Source: Embleya scabrispora DSM 41855 (lineage in GTDB: Bacteria; Actinomycetota; Actinomycetes; Streptomycetales; Streptomycetaceae). Taken from it: a stretch of DNA of 64,000 bases. The stretch is taken from contig NZ_KB889629.1 in assembly GCF_000372745.1 (NCBI RefSeq), positions 17,313-81,312 of the forward strand, in the 5' to 3' direction. Made by a program: the position numbers and the translations under genes. How positions within the stretch are numbered: the first letter of the stretch is position 1; every line of letters starts with the position of its first letter. Under the pieces are notes generated by a model. It made no database searches and was not told the origin of the DNA. It worked only from the letters and a program-made list of their open reading frames with translations. Positions 25,382 through 34,287 of this stretch are shown piece after piece.

Positions 25382-25393
25382 GCTTTGCGAGGT

Positions 25394-25466
25394 GCGCCGC
25401 CAGGGACTCGAACCCCGGACCCGCTGATTAAGAGTCAGCTGCTCTAACCAACTGAGCTAGCGGCGC
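25394..25466 (-). tRNA. tRNA-Lys(CUU)
   Basis: 73-nt cloverleaf. Acceptor GCGCCGC pairs with GCGGCGC; the D-arm reads TAGCTCAGTTGGTTAGAGC; the anticodon loop CTCTTAA gives CTT; the T-loop is TTCGAGT. CCA is not encoded. It reads codon AAG, the dominant lysine codon at this GC content. Confidence 0.97.
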
Positions 25467-25722: not shown

Positions 25723-27516
25723 ATGGCCATGCGGCAGGGGGCCGGTCCTTCGTCCGGGAATGTCCGGCTCAAGGCCCTACGGCACTCGCATGGCTGGGTT
25801 TCCCAGCAACAATTGGCCGATGCCTTCGAGAAGAAGGCGCTCGAATGCGGACTTCGTCTCGGCGTCAGCGTGCGGCAGGTGCGGCGCTGGGAAAGCGCCG
25901 ATCCGCCCTGGCCGACCCCCGATTATCAGCAGGTTCTGCAGGCTTTGTTCGAGCGGCCGCTGACCGACCTCGGGTTCACCCCGCCCTGGCAGGCGGAGCT
26001 GGCCGAGTACGGCGAGGACTTCACCGACGCGCATCCCACCGCCGAGCAACCGCCGACTCCCTCGGCGTTCCCCGCGCCCGCCCGGGAAATCGGGCGGGCG
26101 CCCGATCGCGGGGAGCAGGCCTTCGGCGAGGCCCGGGTCCGCCGGCAGCCGCCGCCCGTCGGTGGTCCGGTCGGCGGGGCGATGGTCGTGCCCACCCACC
26201 CGGCACCCGCGACCGGCCGCCAGGCGCCGCCGGCGCGCTCCGGCCCGGTACCCCCGCCGGGCCCCCCGCCGCCTCCGCGATCCGCCGCGCCACCCGGCCC
26301 GGTGCCGCCGCCCGGACCCGCGATCGTGCCCCCCCGAACGCCCCTGGAGACCGGCCCCACCGTGGTCGGCGGCCGACGGCTGGAAGGCGACGGCCCGCCC
26401 GGCCTGCCGGTGCGCCCGCCGCTGCGTGCCATCGGTGCGCCGGCCGCCGAGCCGCCGGCCGCCACCCTGGAGATCGCCACCCCCGCGGTGCTGCGCCAAC
26501 TGCTCCGGGATACCCCCGACCCGGGCCCCCTCGCGGTGCCGATGCACTCGCGGGCCGGTCAGCTGACCGTGGTCGGCGCGGACCAGTACGCGATGCTCAC
26601 CCGCACCTACCGACAGATGTACTGGGTCGCCCCCGCCGCCATCGCCTACCCGTCGGTGATCGCCCACGTGCGCCTGGGCACCCAACTGCTCAATGCCCCC
26701 GGCCCCGCCCGGGCCCGCAGGATCCTGGGCGCGTCGCTCGCCGAGACCGCGATGCTGGCGGGCCGGATGGCCTTCTTCGACCTCGCCCGCCCGCACGACG
26801 CGCAGGACCACTACCTGGTCGCCTATCGCGCCGCCAAGGAGGCCGGGGACACCCTGCTCGCCGCCGCCGTGCTCACCCACACCGCGTTCATCCCCGCCTT
26901 CGACGCGGCGCCCTCCGCCGCCGAGGACATCCTCGACTTCGCCCGCAAGACGGCTACGCGCGGTGCGCCGATGGTGATGCTCGCGTGGTTCGACGCGGTG
27001 CAGTCCGAGTTCGAGTCGCTGCGCGGCACCCCCGAGCGCGGGCTGCACCTGCTCGACCGGGCCGAGGACCTGCTGTGCCACCCGGACAACACACCCACGC
27101 CACCGTGGCTGGACTTCTTCGACGCCTCCCGGTTGTGGGGCTTTCGGGGCAAGACCGAACTCACCGCGCGCCGGATGGACCAGGCCCAGGACTCGCTCAA
27201 CGACGCACTGCAGAACCTGCCGCCCAACGGCGACAAGCAGCGCGCGGTGATGTACGCCGACCTGGCCGAGGCGGCCTTCCAGGCGGGCCGGGTGGACGAG
27301 GCGTGCGGCCGGCTGTTCCAGGCCGTCGACATGCTGCGGGTGCACTGGTATTCGATGGCGATGGACCGGGTCCGGATCACCCGCAGGCAGTTGGAGCCCT
27401 ACAAGAACTCGGTCGCGGTCCGCCAACTCGACGAAGTGCTGGAGTCGTTCAGCGAACTCGCGCCCACCGACGAGACCGGATTCGTGGCGCTGCCGGGAGC
27501 GGACGAACAGAGCTGA
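25723..27516 (+). CDS. XRE-type DNA-binding protein with TPR-like C-terminal domain
   Basis: 597 residues from the ATG at 25723 (GGGAGG 4 nt upstream; ATG 25729 is an alternative). The first about 75 residues form a helix-turn-helix (LKALRHSHGWVSQQQLADAFEKKA ... SVRQVRRWESADPPWPTPDYQQVLQALF). Residues 100-250 are a disordered Pro/Ala-rich linker. From about 290 an all-helical TPR-like domain follows (AETAMLAGRMAFFDLARPHDAQ, KQRAVMYADLAEAA). This architecture is typical of Streptomyces regulators of the NsdA/BldD-XRE-TPR kind, where the TPR part may bind a peptide or partner protein. The nuclease operon starts 74 bp downstream on the same strand. Confidence 0.85.
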   Translation: MAMRQGAGPSSGNVRLKALRHSHGWVSQQQLADAFEKKALECGLRLGVSVRQVRRWESADPPWPTPDYQQVLQALFERPLTDLGFTPPWQAELAEYGEDFTDAHPTAEQPPTPSAFPAPAREIGRAPDRGEQAFGEARVRRQPPPVGGPVGGAMVVPTHPAPATGRQAPPARSGPVPPPGPPPPPRSAAPPGPVPPPGPAIVPPRTPLETGPTVVGGRRLEGDGPPGLPVRPPLRAIGAPAAEPPAATLEIATPAVLRQLLRDTPDPGPLAVPMHSRAGQLTVVGADQYAMLTRTYRQMYWVAPAAIAYPSVIAHVRLGTQLLNAPGPARARRILGASLAETAMLAGRMAFFDLARPHDAQDHYLVAYRAAKEAGDTLLAAAVLTHTAFIPAFDAAPSAAEDILDFARKTATRGAPMVMLAWFDAVQSEFESLRGTPERGLHLLDRAEDLLCHPDNTPTPPWLDFFDASRLWGFRGKTELTARRMDQAQDSLNDALQNLPPNGDKQRAVMYADLAEAAFQAGRVDEACGRLFQAVDMLRVHWYSMAMDRVRITRRQLEPYKNSVAVRQLDEVLESFSELAPTDETGFVALPGADEQS

Positions 27517-27590: not shown

Positions 27591-28817
27591 ATGCGCACGA
27601 CGGGTACCACCGGCGCGATCGCCGGCAGGCTGGAGCAGTTGCGCGGCACACTGCCCACCCGCAATCACAACGCCCGCACGGTCGCGGCCCTCGCGGCCAA
27701 TCCGGGCTGCGCCCGCCGGGGCGTGCTGGACGCGGCCGGCATCGAGAAGACCGTGCTCGCCGACCGACTCGGCTTCCCGGCCCGCTACGGCGGTCGCTCG
27801 CCGTTCGCGATCGGGCGCGGCAACGTGTTCGAGGCCCGGGTCAAGGCGGACGGTGGCACCGAGTTGCGCCGACTGCTCGCCGAGACGTTGGGCGCGAACC
27901 CGGACGCCGGCGCGCTGGTCGACGTGGAGCACGAGAGCGCCGGCCGACCGAGCCGCGAGGAACGGGTGGCCCGTACCCGCGACGCCCTGGCCCGGGCCGC
28001 CCGCGGCGAACCGGACGCGTGCGCGATCCTGGATCACCCGCTGCTGCCGCTGGACGTGGCCGGCCGGCGGGCCTACCTGGAGCCGGACGCGATGGCCTGC
28101 CGAGTGGCCGGCCGGCTGTACGTGGTGGAGATCAAGTCCTTCGCGATCATCGACGGGTCCGCCGATCCGGGCAAACTCGCCTCGGCCACCCGCCAGGCCG
28201 CGGTCTACGTGCACGCGCTGCGCCGGCTGGCCGCCGAACTGGGCCTGGACCCGGACGTCGTGGCCACCGACATCGTGCTGGTGTGCGCCCAGGACTTCTC
28301 CAACCGCCCGGTCGCCGTCGTGCTCGACGTGCGGCGCGAACTGGCCACCACCCGACGCCGGTTGGAGCGCCTGTCGGGGGTGGAGGAACTGCTCGGCGAA
28401 CTGCCGGACACGCTGACCTTCGACGTCGACGGCGACCTGGCCGGCGAGGCCGTCGCGCGGGTGCCCGCCGCGTACGTGCCGGACTGTCTGTCCGCGTGCG
28501 AACTCGCGCTGTTCTGCCGGGACGAGGCCCGGGGCTGTGGTCCGGGCGGCGGCAGCGTGGGCACGTTGGGCACCTCGGTGCGCGGTGCGCTCGGCGGGAT
28601 CGAGGACATCGGCGACGCGCTGGCCCTGGCCGACGGCACACGCGCCGCCCGGCCCGGCGAGGAGGACGTGGCCAGGTTGCTCCGCCGGGCCCAGGCGCTG
28701 CGAACCGAGGTGCTGGGCGCCGAGATGCCGGGATCCCAGGCGCCGGGAATCGCGCTGCCACGTCCCGTGGGACCGCCCGCGGCGTCGCGGGCCGAGCTGT
28801 CCGGCGGCGTCGGGTGA
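27591..28817 (+). CDS. RecB/Cas4-like PD-(D/E)XK nuclease with candidate Fe-S cluster cysteines
   Basis: 408 residues from the ATG at 27591. The nuclease core is PDAMACRVAGRLYVVEIKSF: Asp166 and Glu180-x-Lys182 form the PD-(D/E)XK site, followed by a helix with Gln in ATRQAAVYVHAL (RecB-type QhxxY motif). Cys40 (NPGCARRG) and a C-terminal group C299-x3-C303-x5-C309-x6-C316 recall the one-plus-three cysteine layout that holds a 4Fe-4S cluster in Cas4, AddB and Dna2, although the first spacing is x3 instead of x2. Predicted role: DNA end-processing nuclease. It is coupled to the next gene by a GTGA overlap and, through it, to a helicase. Function in repair or phage defence is inference. Confidence 0.8.
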   Translation: MRTTGTTGAIAGRLEQLRGTLPTRNHNARTVAALAANPGCARRGVLDAAGIEKTVLADRLGFPARYGGRSPFAIGRGNVFEARVKADGGTELRRLLAETLGANPDAGALVDVEHESAGRPSREERVARTRDALARAARGEPDACAILDHPLLPLDVAGRRAYLEPDAMACRVAGRLYVVEIKSFAIIDGSADPGKLASATRQAAVYVHALRRLAAELGLDPDVVATDIVLVCAQDFSNRPVAVVLDVRRELATTRRRLERLSGVEELLGELPDTLTFDVDGDLAGEAVARVPAAYVPDCLSACELALFCRDEARGCGPGGGSVGTLGTSVRGALGGIEDIGDALALADGTRAARPGEEDVARLLRRAQALRTEVLGAEMPGSQAPGIALPRPVGPPAASRAELSGGVG

Positions 28818-30352
28818 GCGCGATCGCCGCGCTCGGCCGGCTGCGCGCCGCCGCGACCGGGGCGGCCCAACCGGCCGCGACCGTGCGCCACCGGCATCTG
28901 TCCGCCCGGCCGCTGGTACTGGTGCCCTATGTGCTCGCGGGCGAGGCGTTCGCGCCGTTGGCGGTGTTGGTCGGCACCGACCGGGACCGGCCGCACCTGC
29001 TCGCCGTGCCGCAACCGCGCGACCGCGACCGGCGATTCGCGCACGCGGCCGAATTGGGCCGGCTGTTGCTGCCCTACCTGGGCGCGTTCGCGGCCGAGAC
29101 GGAGACGATCGAGCGGCGCGGCGACGACCCGTACGAGCGCAGCTTGGACGCGCCGCAGGTGTTGGTGCCCACGGCGGGCGGTGTCGAGTATCTGCGCCTG
29201 CTCGGCCGGTCTACCCGATTCCGGCGCACCGACGGCGAGTTCGCGGTGGCCGAGGAGGTGCCGCTGCTCGGCCGGTGGAGCACGTGGCTCGCGGACCGGG
29301 CCGGCGTGCCCGGATCGAGCGTGCTGTTGGCGATGACCGACCTGCTCACCCAGGCGTGGGTGACCGGACAGAGTGCGCTGGAGGACGGCGACCTGGCCGC
29401 GCTGCTCGCCTGGATCGACCCGCCGGCCGGGCAGCGCGGGGATCGGGCGGCCCGCGCGGTCGAGGGCGGCCCGACCGCGGGGCCCGCGACCGATCCGGCG
29501 TTCGACGAGCGCCTGGTGCCGCTGATCGCCGCGTTCGACGAGGCGGTGGCCGCGGAACGGGCCGAGGCCGCGGGCGCCGAGGCCCGCACCGACCTCGGGC
29601 CGCGCGGTCGGGACGCGGAGCAGGCGATCCGCGACGCACTGGCCGCCGAGTTGATGCCGACCTGGGACCGGGTGTGGCGCGGCGTGGAACTGCTCGGCGC
29701 GCTGCCCGCGGGCGGGTCGGTGGCCGGGCGGTGGGAGGCCGATCGGGCCTCGTACAGCTTCTTCGCCGCCGATCTGGCCGACCCCGAGTCGCGTCCGCAG
29801 CCGCGGGTGCCCGGTGCGGTCTCGGCTGCCGCGCAACTGGCCACCCGGGAACGGGCACAGGCCCGACTGGATGCCGAACAGGTGCGTGACGACCCGCTGT
29901 TGATGGCCGCCGTTCGGCTCGCCGGCGAGGCGTTCCGCGGCGGGCTGATCGCGGTGGACGCCGAGCGTATGGTCGCCGAGCCCGGGAAGAAGACCGCCCG
30001 CCCGCGCCCGATGTTGACCTTCGCCACCGACGACGAACCGCTGTTCGGGCCGGGTACCGACCTCGCGTGCGTCGAACGCCCGGACGCGAAGGCGCGAGTC
30101 CTGGAGGCCGAGCCCGGCCGGGTCGTGCTGGAACTGCGCGGCGGCATGGGCGGGGGCAAGGCGCCCAAGCCGGGCAGCGTGCCCGAAGTGGGCGAAGTCC
30201 TGTGCTGGACCTCGCTGATCGCCGAATTCCGGCGCGGCCCGGACTGGCCCGCCGTCGAGGACACCCCCTGGACCCACGGCGGCCCGCCGCCGGAGCCCGA
30301 ACCCGAGGTCGCCTCGGACCCGGACGACGACGCGTTGGAGGAGTGGTCGTGA
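28814..30352 (+). CDS. Protein of unknown function, middle gene of the nuclease-helicase operon
   Basis: 512 residues from a GTG at 28814 overlapping the nuclease stop; its own stop overlaps the helicase start in the same way. No family was recognised. The first 180 residues are mixed alpha/beta with PLVLVPYVLAGEAFAPLAVLVGTDRDRPHLLAVPQPRDRDRRF; a region near residues 210-270 is Ala/Glu-rich; then helical WRGVELLGALPAG and SYSFFAADLA; and the end is a conserved-looking beta section (GRVVLELRGGMGGGKAPKPG, PEVGEVLCWTSLIAEFRRGP) plus an acidic tail. No nuclease or ATPase motif is evident. By position it is probably a structural or DNA-binding subunit of a complex with its two neighbours. Confidence 0.8.
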   Translation: MSAIAALGRLRAAATGAAQPAATVRHRHLSARPLVLVPYVLAGEAFAPLAVLVGTDRDRPHLLAVPQPRDRDRRFAHAAELGRLLLPYLGAFAAETETIERRGDDPYERSLDAPQVLVPTAGGVEYLRLLGRSTRFRRTDGEFAVAEEVPLLGRWSTWLADRAGVPGSSVLLAMTDLLTQAWVTGQSALEDGDLAALLAWIDPPAGQRGDRAARAVEGGPTAGPATDPAFDERLVPLIAAFDEAVAAERAEAAGAEARTDLGPRGRDAEQAIRDALAAELMPTWDRVWRGVELLGALPAGGSVAGRWEADRASYSFFAADLADPESRPQPRVPGAVSAAAQLATRERAQARLDAEQVRDDPLLMAAVRLAGEAFRGGLIAVDAERMVAEPGKKTARPRPMLTFATDDEPLFGPGTDLACVERPDAKARVLEAEPGRVVLELRGGMGGGKAPKPGSVPEVGEVLCWTSLIAEFRRGPDWPAVEDTPWTHGGPPPEPEPEVASDPDDDALEEWS

Positions 30353-31692
30353 CGACCGTGCCCACCGGTCGTGCCGCGGGTGACCCGGCCGCGCTCGCCG
30401 CCGCCGCGACCGACGCCGTGCTCGCCGATCTCGGCTCCGGCGCGCATCGCGGCGTCGTGGTCGACTCGCCGCCCGGCGCGGGCAAGTCGACGCTGGTGGT
30501 GCGCGCGGCGGGGGAGCTGGCCCAGGCCGGCGAGCGGCTGATGATCGTCGCGCAGACCAACAACCAGGTCGACGACCTGCTGGTCCGACTGGTCCAGGAC
30601 CACCCGGCGCTGACCGTGGGTCGGTTGTCCGCCACCGGGTATCGGCTGCCGCCCGCGCTGGTGGGCACCTCGGTGCTGAACGCGGAGAAGGCGGAGGCGC
30701 TGGACGCGTGTGCGGTGGTGGTGGCCACCGCCGCCAAGTGGGCACTCGTGCAGGACCGGCGCTGGCCGTGGGCGATCGTCGACGAGGCGTACCAGATGCG
30801 TTCGGACGCGCTGCTGCTGGTGGCCCGGCTGTTCGATCGGGCGCTGTTCGTGGGCGACCCCGGCCAACTCGACCCGTTCGCCACCGTGGACACCTCGCGC
30901 TGGCACAGCCTGAGCTACGACCCCTCGCAGAGCGCGGTGGTCGTGCTGCGCCGGCACAATCCGGACCTGCCGGTGCATCGACTCCCGGTGTCCTGGCGGT
31001 TGCCCGCGAGCGCGGCGCCGCTGGTGTCCGAGGCGTTCTACCCCTTCACCCCGTTTCGTTCCGGCACCGGTCCGGGCGAGCGGCTGTTGCACTTCGGCGC
31101 GGCACGCGAACACGACGCGTACGACGCGGCCGTGGACGTCGCGGCGAAGTCCGGGTGGGGCCTGCTGGAGTTGCCCGCGCGGTTCACCGCGGCGGCCGAC
31201 GAGGAGGCGGTGCACGCGGTCGCCACGCTGGCCGCGCGGCTGCTCGCGCGGGGCGGGACCACGATCGGCGAGCGCACCCCGGACGGGGTGCCGCTGGACG
31301 CGTCCCGGATCGCGATCGGGGTCAGCCACCGCGAGCAGCGGGCCCGGGTCGAGTCGGCACTGCGCGACCTGGGCGCGGCGGAGATCGTGGTGGACACCGC
31401 GAACCGGCTCCAGGGTCGCGAGTTCGACGTGACCGTGGTGCTGCATCCGCTCTCCGGTCGGCGCGACGCGACCGAGTTCCACCTGGAGACCGGCCGGCTG
31501 TGCGTGCTCGCCTCGCGGCATCGACACGCGTGTCTGGTGGTCGCCCGGGCCGGCATCCCCGACCTGCTCGACGCGCATCCCACCGCCGACCCGGTCCACC
31601 TCGGCGTGCCGGTCAGCTTCCCGGACGGCTGGGAGGCGAACCAGGCGGTGCTGGCCGAACTCGCCCGGCACCGGGTCGCACTGTCCGGGTGA
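30349..31692 (+). CDS. SF1 helicase, Upf1/Dna2-like
   Basis: 447 residues from a GTG at 30349 overlapping the previous stop. Motif I SPPGAGKST (Lys46), motif Ia IVAQTNNQVDDL, motif II AIVDEAYQM (Asp145-Glu146), motif III FVGDPGQLDPF, motif IV-V region IVVDTANRLQGREFDVTVVLHP and motif VI GRLCVLASRHRHACLVV are all in order, so it should be an active DNA or RNA translocase. At 447 residues it is compact: only the two RecA domains with small insertions. The Cas4-like nuclease two genes upstream suggests a nuclease-helicase machine comparable in logic to Dna2 or AddAB, split over three proteins. Confidence 0.88.
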   Translation: MTTVPTGRAAGDPAALAAAATDAVLADLGSGAHRGVVVDSPPGAGKSTLVVRAAGELAQAGERLMIVAQTNNQVDDLLVRLVQDHPALTVGRLSATGYRLPPALVGTSVLNAEKAEALDACAVVVATAAKWALVQDRRWPWAIVDEAYQMRSDALLLVARLFDRALFVGDPGQLDPFATVDTSRWHSLSYDPSQSAVVVLRRHNPDLPVHRLPVSWRLPASAAPLVSEAFYPFTPFRSGTGPGERLLHFGAAREHDAYDAAVDVAAKSGWGLLELPARFTAAADEEAVHAVATLAARLLARGGTTIGERTPDGVPLDASRIAIGVSHREQRARVESALRDLGAAEIVVDTANRLQGREFDVTVVLHPLSGRRDATEFHLETGRLCVLASRHRHACLVVARAGIPDLLDAHPTADPVHLGVPVSFPDGWEANQAVLAELARHRVALSG

Positions 31693-33294: not shown

Positions 33295-34287
33295 GTGCAA
33301 CGACGTACCTTTCTGGCCGGCGCCGCCGTCGCCGGCCTCACCGTCAGGAGTTCCGCCGCATACGCCTCGTCGGGGCCGGCAGCCACTCTTCCCGATCCCG
33401 CCGCCTACACCGCCACCACCGCCCGTCTGCGATCCCGCTACTGGATCGAGGAACCCGGGCGACTGCTTCCGGTGGTGGCCGAACACGCCCGCAACGGCGC
33501 CCGGCTGCTGGCCGAGGGACCGGAGGGGACGCACTATTCCGCGATCGCGGAGACCGCGTTGCTCGCGTCGAGGATCGCCTTCTTCGACCTGAGCCTGCGC
33601 GGGCCGCACGTGCGGCGCTGGCAGGACCTCGCGCTGGACGCGGCGGACCGGGGCCGGGACGGCTCGCTGGCCGCCGCCGTGCTCGGGCACATGGCGTTCG
33701 CGCCGGCCTGGACCGGGCGGGGCGGGGAGGCCCGGGACACCCTGGCCGCGGCGCGCGAGCGCACCACCGGCGGCGACGCCGGGCCGACGCTGCGGGCGTG
33801 GCTGGACGCGATCGCGGCCGAGGCGGAGGTCCGGCTCGGCACGCCGGACGCGGCCTTTCCGCTGCTGGATCGCGCCGCCGAAACGTACGCGCCGCCGGAG
33901 ACGCCCGGCTCGTGGACGGCGGACGGGCCGCCGGTCTGGCTGGACTGGTTCTCCGCGGCCCGTCTGGAGGGCTTCCGCGGCGCCGCGGAGGTGGCCGCCG
34001 GGCGCTCGGCCCAGGCGCGGGCCAGCCTGGAGCGCACGCTCGCCGGGTTGCCGGCGGACAGCCACAAGCAGCGGGCGATGACACTGGCCGAACTGGCCGC
34101 GACGGCGGTCGGGGCTCGGGAGCCGCAGGACGCGTGTCGGCTGTTGGAGGAGGCGCTCGACCTGGTCGGGGTGCAGGGGTACGCGACGGCGGTGGATCGG
34201 GTGCGCACGGTGCGGGCGTCGCTGGCGCCTTGGGCGCGGGAGACGTTCGTGCGGGAGGTCGACGATCGGTTGCGGGGGGCGACGTAG
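33295..34287 (+). CDS. TPR-like protein with twin-arginine-type N-terminus
   Basis: 330 residues from a GTG at 33295 with GGGAGGA 4 nt upstream. The N-terminus, QRRTFLAGAAVAGLTV then AYASS, looks like a Tat signal. The rest is a TPR-like all-helical domain that clearly matches the C-terminal half of the XRE protein at 25723-27516: AETALLASRIAFFDLS, WLDWFSAARLEGFRG, KQRAMTLAELA, VDRVRTVR. No helix-turn-helix is present. In related Streptomyces proteins an RRxFL motif occurs just after the HTH, so this may be a headless derivative instead of a truly exported protein. Function unknown. Confidence 0.75.
   Translation: MQRRTFLAGAAVAGLTVRSSAAYASSGPAATLPDPAAYTATTARLRSRYWIEEPGRLLPVVAEHARNGARLLAEGPEGTHYSAIAETALLASRIAFFDLSLRGPHVRRWQDLALDAADRGRDGSLAAAVLGHMAFAPAWTGRGGEARDTLAAARERTTGGDAGPTLRAWLDAIAAEAEVRLGTPDAAFPLLDRAAETYAPPETPGSWTADGPPVWLDWFSAARLEGFRGAAEVAAGRSAQARASLERTLAGLPADSHKQRAMTLAELAATAVGAREPQDACRLLEEALDLVGVQGYATAVDRVRTVRASLAPWARETFVREVDDRLRGAT

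Follow-up and report, generated by a model that had tools for sequence, protein, structure and literature searches.

The window analysed here is a stretch of 64,000 nucleotides (nt) from Embleya scabrispora DSM 41855 (contig NZ_KB889629.1), whose genome measures 11.4 Mb. It contains an operon of three genes, all on the forward strand, which we call P1, P2 and P3. P1 (P0001; 27591..28817, 408 amino acids (aa), ATG start) encodes a PD-(D/E)XK nuclease of the RecB/Cas4/Dna2 type, in which four cysteines are predicted to bind an iron-sulphur (Fe-S) cluster. P2 (P0002; 28814..30352, 512 aa, GTG start) belongs to no named family; its predicted structure combines an exonuclease-like N-terminal fold with a stalk-barrel C-terminal domain resembling helicase domain 1B. 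P3 (P0003; 30349..31692, 447 aa, GTG start) encodes an Upf1/Dna2-like helicase of superfamily 1 (SF1) that is long enough for two RecA domains and no more. The three open reading frames lie where the initial annotation of this DNA had placed them, and at both junctions the stop of one gene and the start of the next share a 4-nt GTGA overlap (28814..28817 and 30349..30352). Our results indicate that the operon probably encodes a Dna2-like helicase-nuclease split over three polypeptides. The copy in the window would likely serve end processing, and a second branch of the operon is linked to defence; the complex, its polarity, its substrate and its role are what we infer.

P1 and P2 are single-copy in this genome, and the best match of P1 that carries a species name comes from Embleya hyalina (86% identity over the best segment). 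The G+C fractions at the three codon positions are 0.787/0.561/0.919 in P1, 0.803/0.564/0.916 in P2 and 0.785/0.521/0.931 in P3. The ratios of nonsynonymous to synonymous substitution rates (dN/dS) against Embleya hyalina are 0.23, 0.14 and 0.16, respectively, and those against Yinghuangia seranimata range from 0.24 to 0.40. Judging from codon-position G+C and dN/dS, purifying selection therefore appears to act on all three genes.

P1 matched no model of Pfam, NCBIfam or PADLOC at E 1, and a sequence search of solved structures gave no match up to E 1. Its assignment is supported by conserved residues in an alignment of 67 loci (66 distinct ones, as L055 and L100 are the same contig), of which 33 (32 distinct) lack the additional gene C4 described below and 34 contain it. 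The active-site residues are Asp166 (28086..28088), found in 64 of the 67 loci, and the pair Glu180-x-Lys182 (28128..28136), with Glu in 60 and Lys in 58. Q202 is present in 66 loci and Y206 in 62. The Asp/Glu/Lys (D-E-K) triad is whole in 33/33 C4-minus loci, the window included, so that the nuclease site noticed in the single sequence stands in the alignment. The predicted Fe-S ligands are Cys40 on the N-terminal side (27708..27710; Cys in 66 loci, the residue in the remaining one being unreadable) and Cys299-x3-Cys303-x5-Cys309 on the C-terminal side (28485..28517), each present in all 67 loci. The initial annotation had counted one N-terminal and four C-terminal cysteines; the fifth is not conserved across the aligned loci, and the conserved pattern is 1+3. 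This 1+3 arrangement is that of Cas4, AddB and Dna2. The AlphaFold model of P1 (predicted local distance difference test, pLDDT, 84.8) aligned most closely by VIA-align with Cas4 (7mi4; Z 10.2, root-mean-square deviation (rmsd) 4.7, 197 residues aligned), followed by EXO5 (7lw7; Z 8.9, rmsd 5.1, 214 aligned), lambda exonuclease (3sm4; Z 8.6), RecB (Z 8.1), AdnA (Z 7.9) and Dna2 (5ean; Z 7.1, rmsd 4.7, 210 aligned). Two Streptomyces loci (L067, L068) have a P1 with an in-frame insertion of ~150 residues near residue 220.

P2 had been described as a protein of no known family. This is correct at the level of sequence, where no Pfam, NCBIfam or PADLOC family was found at E 1, but its confident AlphaFold model (pLDDT 90.5) resembles known folds. 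Residues ~31-299 (28904..29710) are predicted, on moderate evidence, to adopt a fold similar to that of the 3'-5' exonuclease domain in B-family DNA polymerases. Model residues 31..360 aligned with the exonuclease of an archaeal B-family polymerase (7b0f_A; Z 9.3, rmsd 3.7, 182 aligned), and many further rows came from KOD, Tgo and 9N polymerases. Exonuclease motif I is Asp-x-Glu (D-x-E). The alignment showed no D-x-E in the first strand of this part of P2, and we therefore infer that the N-terminal domain is not an active exonuclease.

The C-terminal part of P2 points towards helicases. In the predicted model, residues ~303-466 (29720..30211) combine a beta barrel with long helices and resemble the stalk-barrel of Upf1, IGHMBP2 and Dna2. 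By VIA-align, residues 332-485 matched the N-terminal region of IGHMBP2 (4b3f; Z 9.9, rmsd 4.5, 129 aligned), and residues 366-469 matched the IGHMBP2 barrel itself (4b3g_A; Z 9.8, rmsd 2.0, 83 aligned). The barrel also aligned with those of Setx (8ftm; Z 8.1, rmsd 3.5, 85 aligned), Dna2 (5eax; Z 7.9, rmsd 2.3, 92 aligned) and Sen1 (5mzn; Z 7.4, rmsd 3.2, 82 aligned). This is moderate evidence that P2 ends in a stalk-barrel of the kind found in Upf1/Dna2 helicases.

P3 was recognised as an SF1 helicase by its best Pfam match, AAA_11 (E 5.8e-12), with UvrD_C_2 matching only at E 0.14. Among sequences of solved structures its best matches were IGHMBP2 and Dna2 (E 0.01-0.04), with two unrelated rows at 0.06-0.1, and against PADLOC it gave partial helicase matches only (best 1.6e-9 to MkoA, best stretch 48 residues). 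Sixteen motif positions were checked across the loci. The positions in motifs I-IV, including Walker A (SPPGAGKST, residues 40-48; 30466..30492) and Walker B (DEAY, with D145 and E146 in 65/65 loci; 30781..30792), were invariant in 65/65 loci apart from one S for T48. Those in motifs V and VI (31390..31542) were invariant in the 63 readable loci except for one A for D349. The Upf1/Dna2-like helicase of the initial annotation is thus borne out by both the AAA_11 match and the nearly invariant motifs. As Walker A lies at residues 40-48, the stretch ahead of it is too short for a domain 1B, and P3 reads as a protein of two RecA domains only.

This peculiarity of P3 gains meaning when the three proteins are lined up with Dna2. 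PMC4716839 gives the order in Dna2 as nuclease, barrel on a stalk of two long helices, RecA 1A and RecA 2A, and describes the stalk-barrel as common to Dna2, Upf1, Ighmbp2 and Senataxin. PMC10542128 treats the stalk as characteristic of the whole UPF1/DNA2-like family. Since P2 ends with a stalk-barrel and P3 has no room for one, the gene order P1-P2-P3 equals the domain order of Dna2. The earlier idea of a split nuclease-helicase of Dna2 or Cas4 type is thereby supported in part: the intact D-E-K site, the colinearity with Dna2 including the P2 barrel, and the co-occurrence of the genes all argue for it.

Co-occurrence had been set beforehand as a point on which the proposal could be tested. 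A P1 search of 296 genomes of the class gave 50 matches, two of them marginal (G176, 2e-4; G263, 6e-4), and the P2 profile matched 48 genomes, exactly the non-marginal P1 set. P1 was present in 26 of the 27 listed genomes of one genus (g2) of the window's family. A separate draw of this family, taken from the window's affinity to Embleya to be the Streptomycetaceae, contained P2 in 152/155 genomes and 17/17 genera, mostly with one match per genome. For a survey of the gene order we collected 36 loci (20 genome stretches and 16 named records), of which one (L061) was cut by a contig end, leaving 35; genes in unannotated loci were called by a simple codon-position score rather than by a trained gene finder. 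P1, P2 and P3 were adjacent and in this order in 33/35 loci, with gaps ranging from an overlap to 424 nt. The three genes thus do co-occur in other genomes. P2 matched no phage record and only 3 of 72,556 plasmid records, one of these being a Nonomuraea record of 11.85 Mb that is classed as a plasmid. A literature search by title and abstract start, with subscription papers mostly outside its coverage, found no description of the operon.

A tree of 67 concatenated loci (FastTree, midpoint root, support values left aside) places the window in a C4-less group together with Embleya, Yinghuangia and the core copies from Streptomyces and its relatives. This core group lies next to one C4-plus group, and other C4-plus groups are found elsewhere in the tree. 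From this grouping we conclude that the window holds the core, C4-less form. It looks like the core chromosomal version, without defence neighbours: the operon is flanked by ordinary genes (P450, HAD hydrolase, PAP2, APH). Among the core loci from Streptomyces and its relatives, 11 have a homologue of the PAP2_3 gene upstream of P1, its Pfam assignment having been checked for one. Two mutually homologous genes flank the operon in the window, at 25723-27516 (75 nt upstream) and 33295-34287 (1.6 kb downstream). They appear to be of XRE/TPR type by eye only, with no Pfam match over the cut-off, and the pair is also kept in Embleya and Yinghuangia loci (L053, L054, L059). A tRNA-Lys gene lies at 25391-25466, ~2.1 kb upstream of the operon.

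The second branch of the operon has an extra gene, C4 (~280 aa; no Pfam match for the one scanned), which precedes P1. The C4 profile matched 15/296 class genomes, and all 13 with E <= 5.4e-95 also hold P1-P2; a weak match came from a genome without P1-P2 (G087). Within the window's family C4 was found in 25/345 genomes, with E no worse than 1e-59 in 24. It stood directly before P1-P2-P3 in 23 of these 24 strong genomes and alone in the remaining one. Of the 23 family C4 loci, 21 adjoin SbcCD, pPIWI-RE, CRISPR I-E, Wadjet, type III restriction-modification (R-M) or DUF262-type genes. SbcCD, Wadjet, Cas3 and R-M are DNA-acting families.

These neighbours occupy two sides of the C4-plus operon. 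Upstream and divergent, SbcC and SbcD homologues were found in 9 of the 23 loci, a pPIWI-RE module (PprPDDEXK, PprRE, PprDinG) in 7, and neither in 7. Among the latter, two lead into CRISPR type I-E (L140, Cas3e 8e-220; L142, Cas8e 4e-115), and one each into Wadjet II (JetA2 3e-268), a type III R-M pair (MTase_III 1e-213) and a DUF262-type Orf5 gene (2e-153). L144 gave weak matches only (HEC-07 2.7e-13, NsnC 8.9e-9), and L146 matched none of the probes. Downstream, P3 is followed within ~50-210 nt, in several combinations, by CRISPR, Wadjet or type III R-M genes that run in the same direction. HmaA lies behind the L049 copy (E 0), type III R-M genes lie behind three pPIWI-RE-linked copies, and JetC3 lies near four SbcCD-linked copies (L131 by PADLOC; L046, L138 and L141 by probe). 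Two Streptomyces plasmids carry SbcC-SbcD, then C4-P1-P2-P3 and then Wadjet JetA-D, the SbcCD of WAC00288 being annotated only as short fragments. L044, a C4-plus locus of another family, likewise has SbcCD and Wadjet II. All 9 SbcCD-linked genomes have a stronger SbcD match elsewhere, which indicates that the SbcCD next to the cassette is an extra pair. The pPIWI-RE family PF18155 (pPIWI_RE_Z) occurs in 64/345 family genomes, within ~4 kb of the cassette in 7 and 20-25 kb away in two (G101, G454).

The defence probes gave no hit in the 33 C4-minus loci. All 20 probes were drawn from C4-plus loci and are biased to that extent, and a PADLOC scan of nearest neighbours (at 1e-10) is fairer. The 66 neighbour proteins of the 33 C4-minus loci, a pool that holds the L055/L100 locus twice, matched only mad3 (2) and mad2 (1), and the 44 neighbours of 22 of the 23 C4-plus loci matched 133 models. 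Among the 25 of these models that were listed, PprPDDEXK leads (6), with R-M models in 4 and HmaA and Cas3e in 2 each; the scan names families and not which neighbour matched. At least for L046 and L050, what the R-M models matched is the helicase portion of an HA-domain helicase. In the C4-plus pool the P3 fragment of L145 was replaced by hand with the next gene (JetA2), and G199 was left out. The link to defence suggested in the initial annotation therefore holds for the C4 branch, which lies beside defence genes, but not for the window's own copy with its ordinary neighbours.

Several further features were noticed around the C4 loci. L143 and L144 have a large SMC/AAA_21-type ATPase divergent beside C4, in the usual slot of SbcCD or pPIWI-RE; L139 has a protein of similar length ~4 kb upstream, known by its length alone. 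An HA-domain helicase follows P3 in L046 and L050 (PF03457 found) and in L130 and L132 (by probe). Genes like those of HA-domain helicases occur near the ends of Streptomyces replicons. Some C4 copies, as individual cases only, are also found close to the end of a contig or replicon (for example, G406 at 18 kb from a contig end, and one on a linear plasmid). Wadjet and Lamassu are reported to be enriched towards the ends of Streptomyces chromosomes (PMC10482375). Repeats at ~169 bp spacing occur right after P3 in L045 (13150-13900) and re-encode the last residues of P3, and single stretches resembling the P3 end were seen in L048 (6376-6432) and, about 4 kb away, in L067 (18670-18729). In L145, P3 apparently carries a frameshift close to motif V and P1 has an altered active site, which suggests a decaying copy or a sequencing error.

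Every departure from the D-E-K triad of P1 occurred in a C4-plus locus: 10 of the 34 C4-plus loci were altered. The triad was intact in 12/12 SbcCD-linked loci and altered in 7/7 pPIWI-RE-linked loci, where it reads DLR in five and QER in two. The four cysteines are kept in all C4-plus loci, and the tested helicase residues are kept in the pPIWI-RE-linked ones. The pPIWI-RE module encodes a PD-(D/E)XK protein of its own. It is therefore plausible that this partner took over the cutting, and that the Fe-S shell and the motor of the operon were kept.

If the operon is a split Dna2-like machine, P1 would be its Fe-S PD-(D/E)XK nuclease, P3 its two-RecA SF1B motor, and P2 would supply the stalk-barrel (1B-like) domain, the exonuclease-like fold of P2 probably serving as a scaffold. 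P3, with the barrel of P2 in trans, may pull single-stranded DNA (ssDNA) from an end in the 5'-to-3' direction and feed it to P1. P1 would then cut the ssDNA, and the Fe-S cluster would hold the nuclease ring together. The core branch, to which the window belongs, most likely processes DNA ends, such as broken replication or recombination ends and linear foreign DNA. The C4 branch appears to have been recruited beside end-recognising or DNA-cutting systems (SbcCD, pPIWI-RE, Wadjet, CRISPR I-E, R-M) and probably degrades the DNA that they open. More tentatively, and with somewhat more doubt than confidence, we suggest that the split Dna2-like processor is a general cassette. With C4, it could plug in before CRISPR I-E, Wadjet, type III R-M or pPIWI-RE, or beside a dedicated Mre11-Rad50 pair, destroy the DNA that has been opened, and drop its own nuclease activity when the partner provides one. 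Its C4-less form would be a near-universal core of the Streptomycetaceae, a bacterial counterpart of resection by Mre11-Rad50 plus Dna2.

Distant relatives may show this arrangement in a fused form. The locus of the marginal match G176 (L103:1656-5845) encodes a protein of 836-896 aa whose beginning resembles P1 (hhalign E 2e-6) and shares its cysteine cluster. Its gene overlaps that of a P3-related helicase (hhalign E 2.5e-21 over most of its length) and is divergent from a type ISP restriction enzyme. The Rhodococcus plasmid pDF02 (L154) has the same pair; its helicase and that of G176 are 57% identical, and genes for a DNA methyltransferase and a DEAD/DEAH helicase come next. The fused form (P0004) is present on two Rhodococcus plasmids. 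A P0004 search gave no match in 246 genomes of the phylum, a draw within which no known carrier was shown, so that this count does not inform on its range.

Gene identity, conservation, co-occurrence and neighbourhoods are shown by our data, and the folds by prediction. Several observations weigh against our interpretation. Support for the folds comes from Z scores of 8-10, and barrels that are unrelated score as high as 7-7.5. The best Foldseek row for P2 was an unrelated flavohaemoglobin (E 0.008), with Dna2 second (0.013); for P1, Foldseek gave no E better than 0.002, and neither model reached E < 0.001. The P2 part was not detectable in P0004 by profile comparison (E 0.16), and we therefore do not claim that P0004 contains P2. 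P3 was not next to P2 in 2/35 loci (L035 and L036, both of family f37), where the slot after P2 is taken by a mannanase or a GGDEF-EAL gene. A break-up of the trio in f37 was nevertheless rejected, as P3 is still present in both genomes (G095, G196), with 66% identity and at ~36 and ~49 kb from P2. The D-E-K triad is altered not only beside pPIWI-RE but also in 3/15 other C4-plus loci (L052, L144, L145). Moreover, the pPIWI-RE-linked loci form one related group in the tree, with L144 and L145 as nearest relatives. Since these two have no pPIWI-RE at hand, the change may predate that partner and represent few events rather than seven. A Fisher test (7/7 vs 0/12) ignores this kinship, and its p-value was not used. 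Finally, among the eight C4-plus loci of other families that lack SbcCD (L033, L034, L037-L041, L052), seven had no probe hit and L040 had a single hit of the Cas3e probe, which weakens the notion that C4 alone marks defence.

These eight loci, together with the near-universal presence of the operon, the single P2 match in most genomes and the ordinary nearest neighbours, would also fit a housekeeping repair enzyme and nothing else. The operon would then provide a further end-resection route beside enzymes of the AdnAB/RecBCD type, and the defence neighbours of C4 would have accumulated as genes of accessory regions do. We regard this as unlikely, because passive collection predicts neither the co-directional CRISPR, Wadjet and type III R-M genes ~50-210 nt after P3, in several combinations, nor the altered nuclease site in all pPIWI-RE-linked loci.

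Alternatively, the core operon might itself act across the whole family as an innate nuclease against plasmids or phages, degrading linear foreign DNA. A nuclease-helicase would be a suitable type of enzyme, and the related branch does lie beside defence genes and on plasmids. This explanation is quite improbable in view of the C4-minus loci, where probes from the other branch found nothing and 66 neighbours yielded only the mad3 and mad2 matches; moreover, defence systems are seldom so nearly universal. A third possibility is an RNA- or R-loop-directed surveillance complex, as helicases of the Upf1 kind often have RNA as their substrate and an action on R-loops has been proposed for pPIWI-RE systems. 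It would match the Upf1/IGHMBP2/Senataxin-type barrel of P2, the pPIWI-RE partner in 7/23 loci, and proposals made in PMC3702460 and PMC10542128. It is very improbable, since P1 resembles DNA nucleases and the other partners act on DNA.

This putative end processor is present in 152/155 genomes of the family, with P1 and P2 lacking a model in Pfam, NCBIfam and PADLOC. If the operon is indeed Dna2-like in action, bacteria would possess the architecture of Dna2 in the form of separable parts, and direct tests would become possible for end resection, for the instability of chromosome arms and for barriers to plasmids in Streptomyces. The defence-linked branch would be a case in which systems so far treated separately share a single processing module, and the altered P1 site beside pPIWI-RE offers a natural experiment on which part cuts.

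Comparison with known systems places the operon close to several nuclease-helicases. The anti-phage system models of PADLOC-DB 2.0.0 contained none for P1 or P2, and P3 gave only its partial helicase matches. pPIWI-RE, Wadjet, CRISPR I-E and type III R-M are neighbours of the C4 branch, and thus partners rather than relatives. The TM0106 family (TIGR03491) consists of a RecB-like nuclease linked to an AAA_11/AAA_12 helicase; as an explanation it was discarded, since its model matched neither the window genome nor P1-P3, while it did match 7/14 control genomes. AddAB, AdnAB and RecBCD are nuclease-helicases for DNA ends, in which the nuclease is fused to a UvrD-type helicase. The fold of P1 is near the nuclease domains of AdnA and RecB. 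Unlike in these enzymes, the nuclease of the operon has its own gene and the helicase is separate and of the Upf1 type. With Cas4, EXO5 and the pfam12705 nucleases, P1 shares its fold, the four cysteines and the D-E-K site. It differs from Cas4 in lacking a match to the Cas4 or PDDEXK_1/pfam12705 models at E 1, and in having an Upf1-like helicase and P2 as partners. The survey of Cas4 genes in PMC5704561 reports links with UvrD-like and YprA-like helicases, and the word Streptomyces is absent from its main text.

The resemblance to Dna2 extends over all three proteins. Like Dna2, the operon has a RecB-type nuclease with four conserved cysteines (P1, the Fe-S cluster being predicted from the cysteines), a beta barrel that sits on a stalk of two helices and comes between the nuclease and the helicase (P2, in the predicted model) and an SF1B Upf1-like helicase with two RecA domains (P3, by sequence motifs). 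An N-terminal OB domain of the Dna2 type was not evident in the secondary structure of the P1 model, no separate search for such a domain having been made. In contrast to Dna2, which is one polypeptide, the operon is bacterial, consists of three separate overlapping genes, and carries in P2 an extra exonuclease-like fold.

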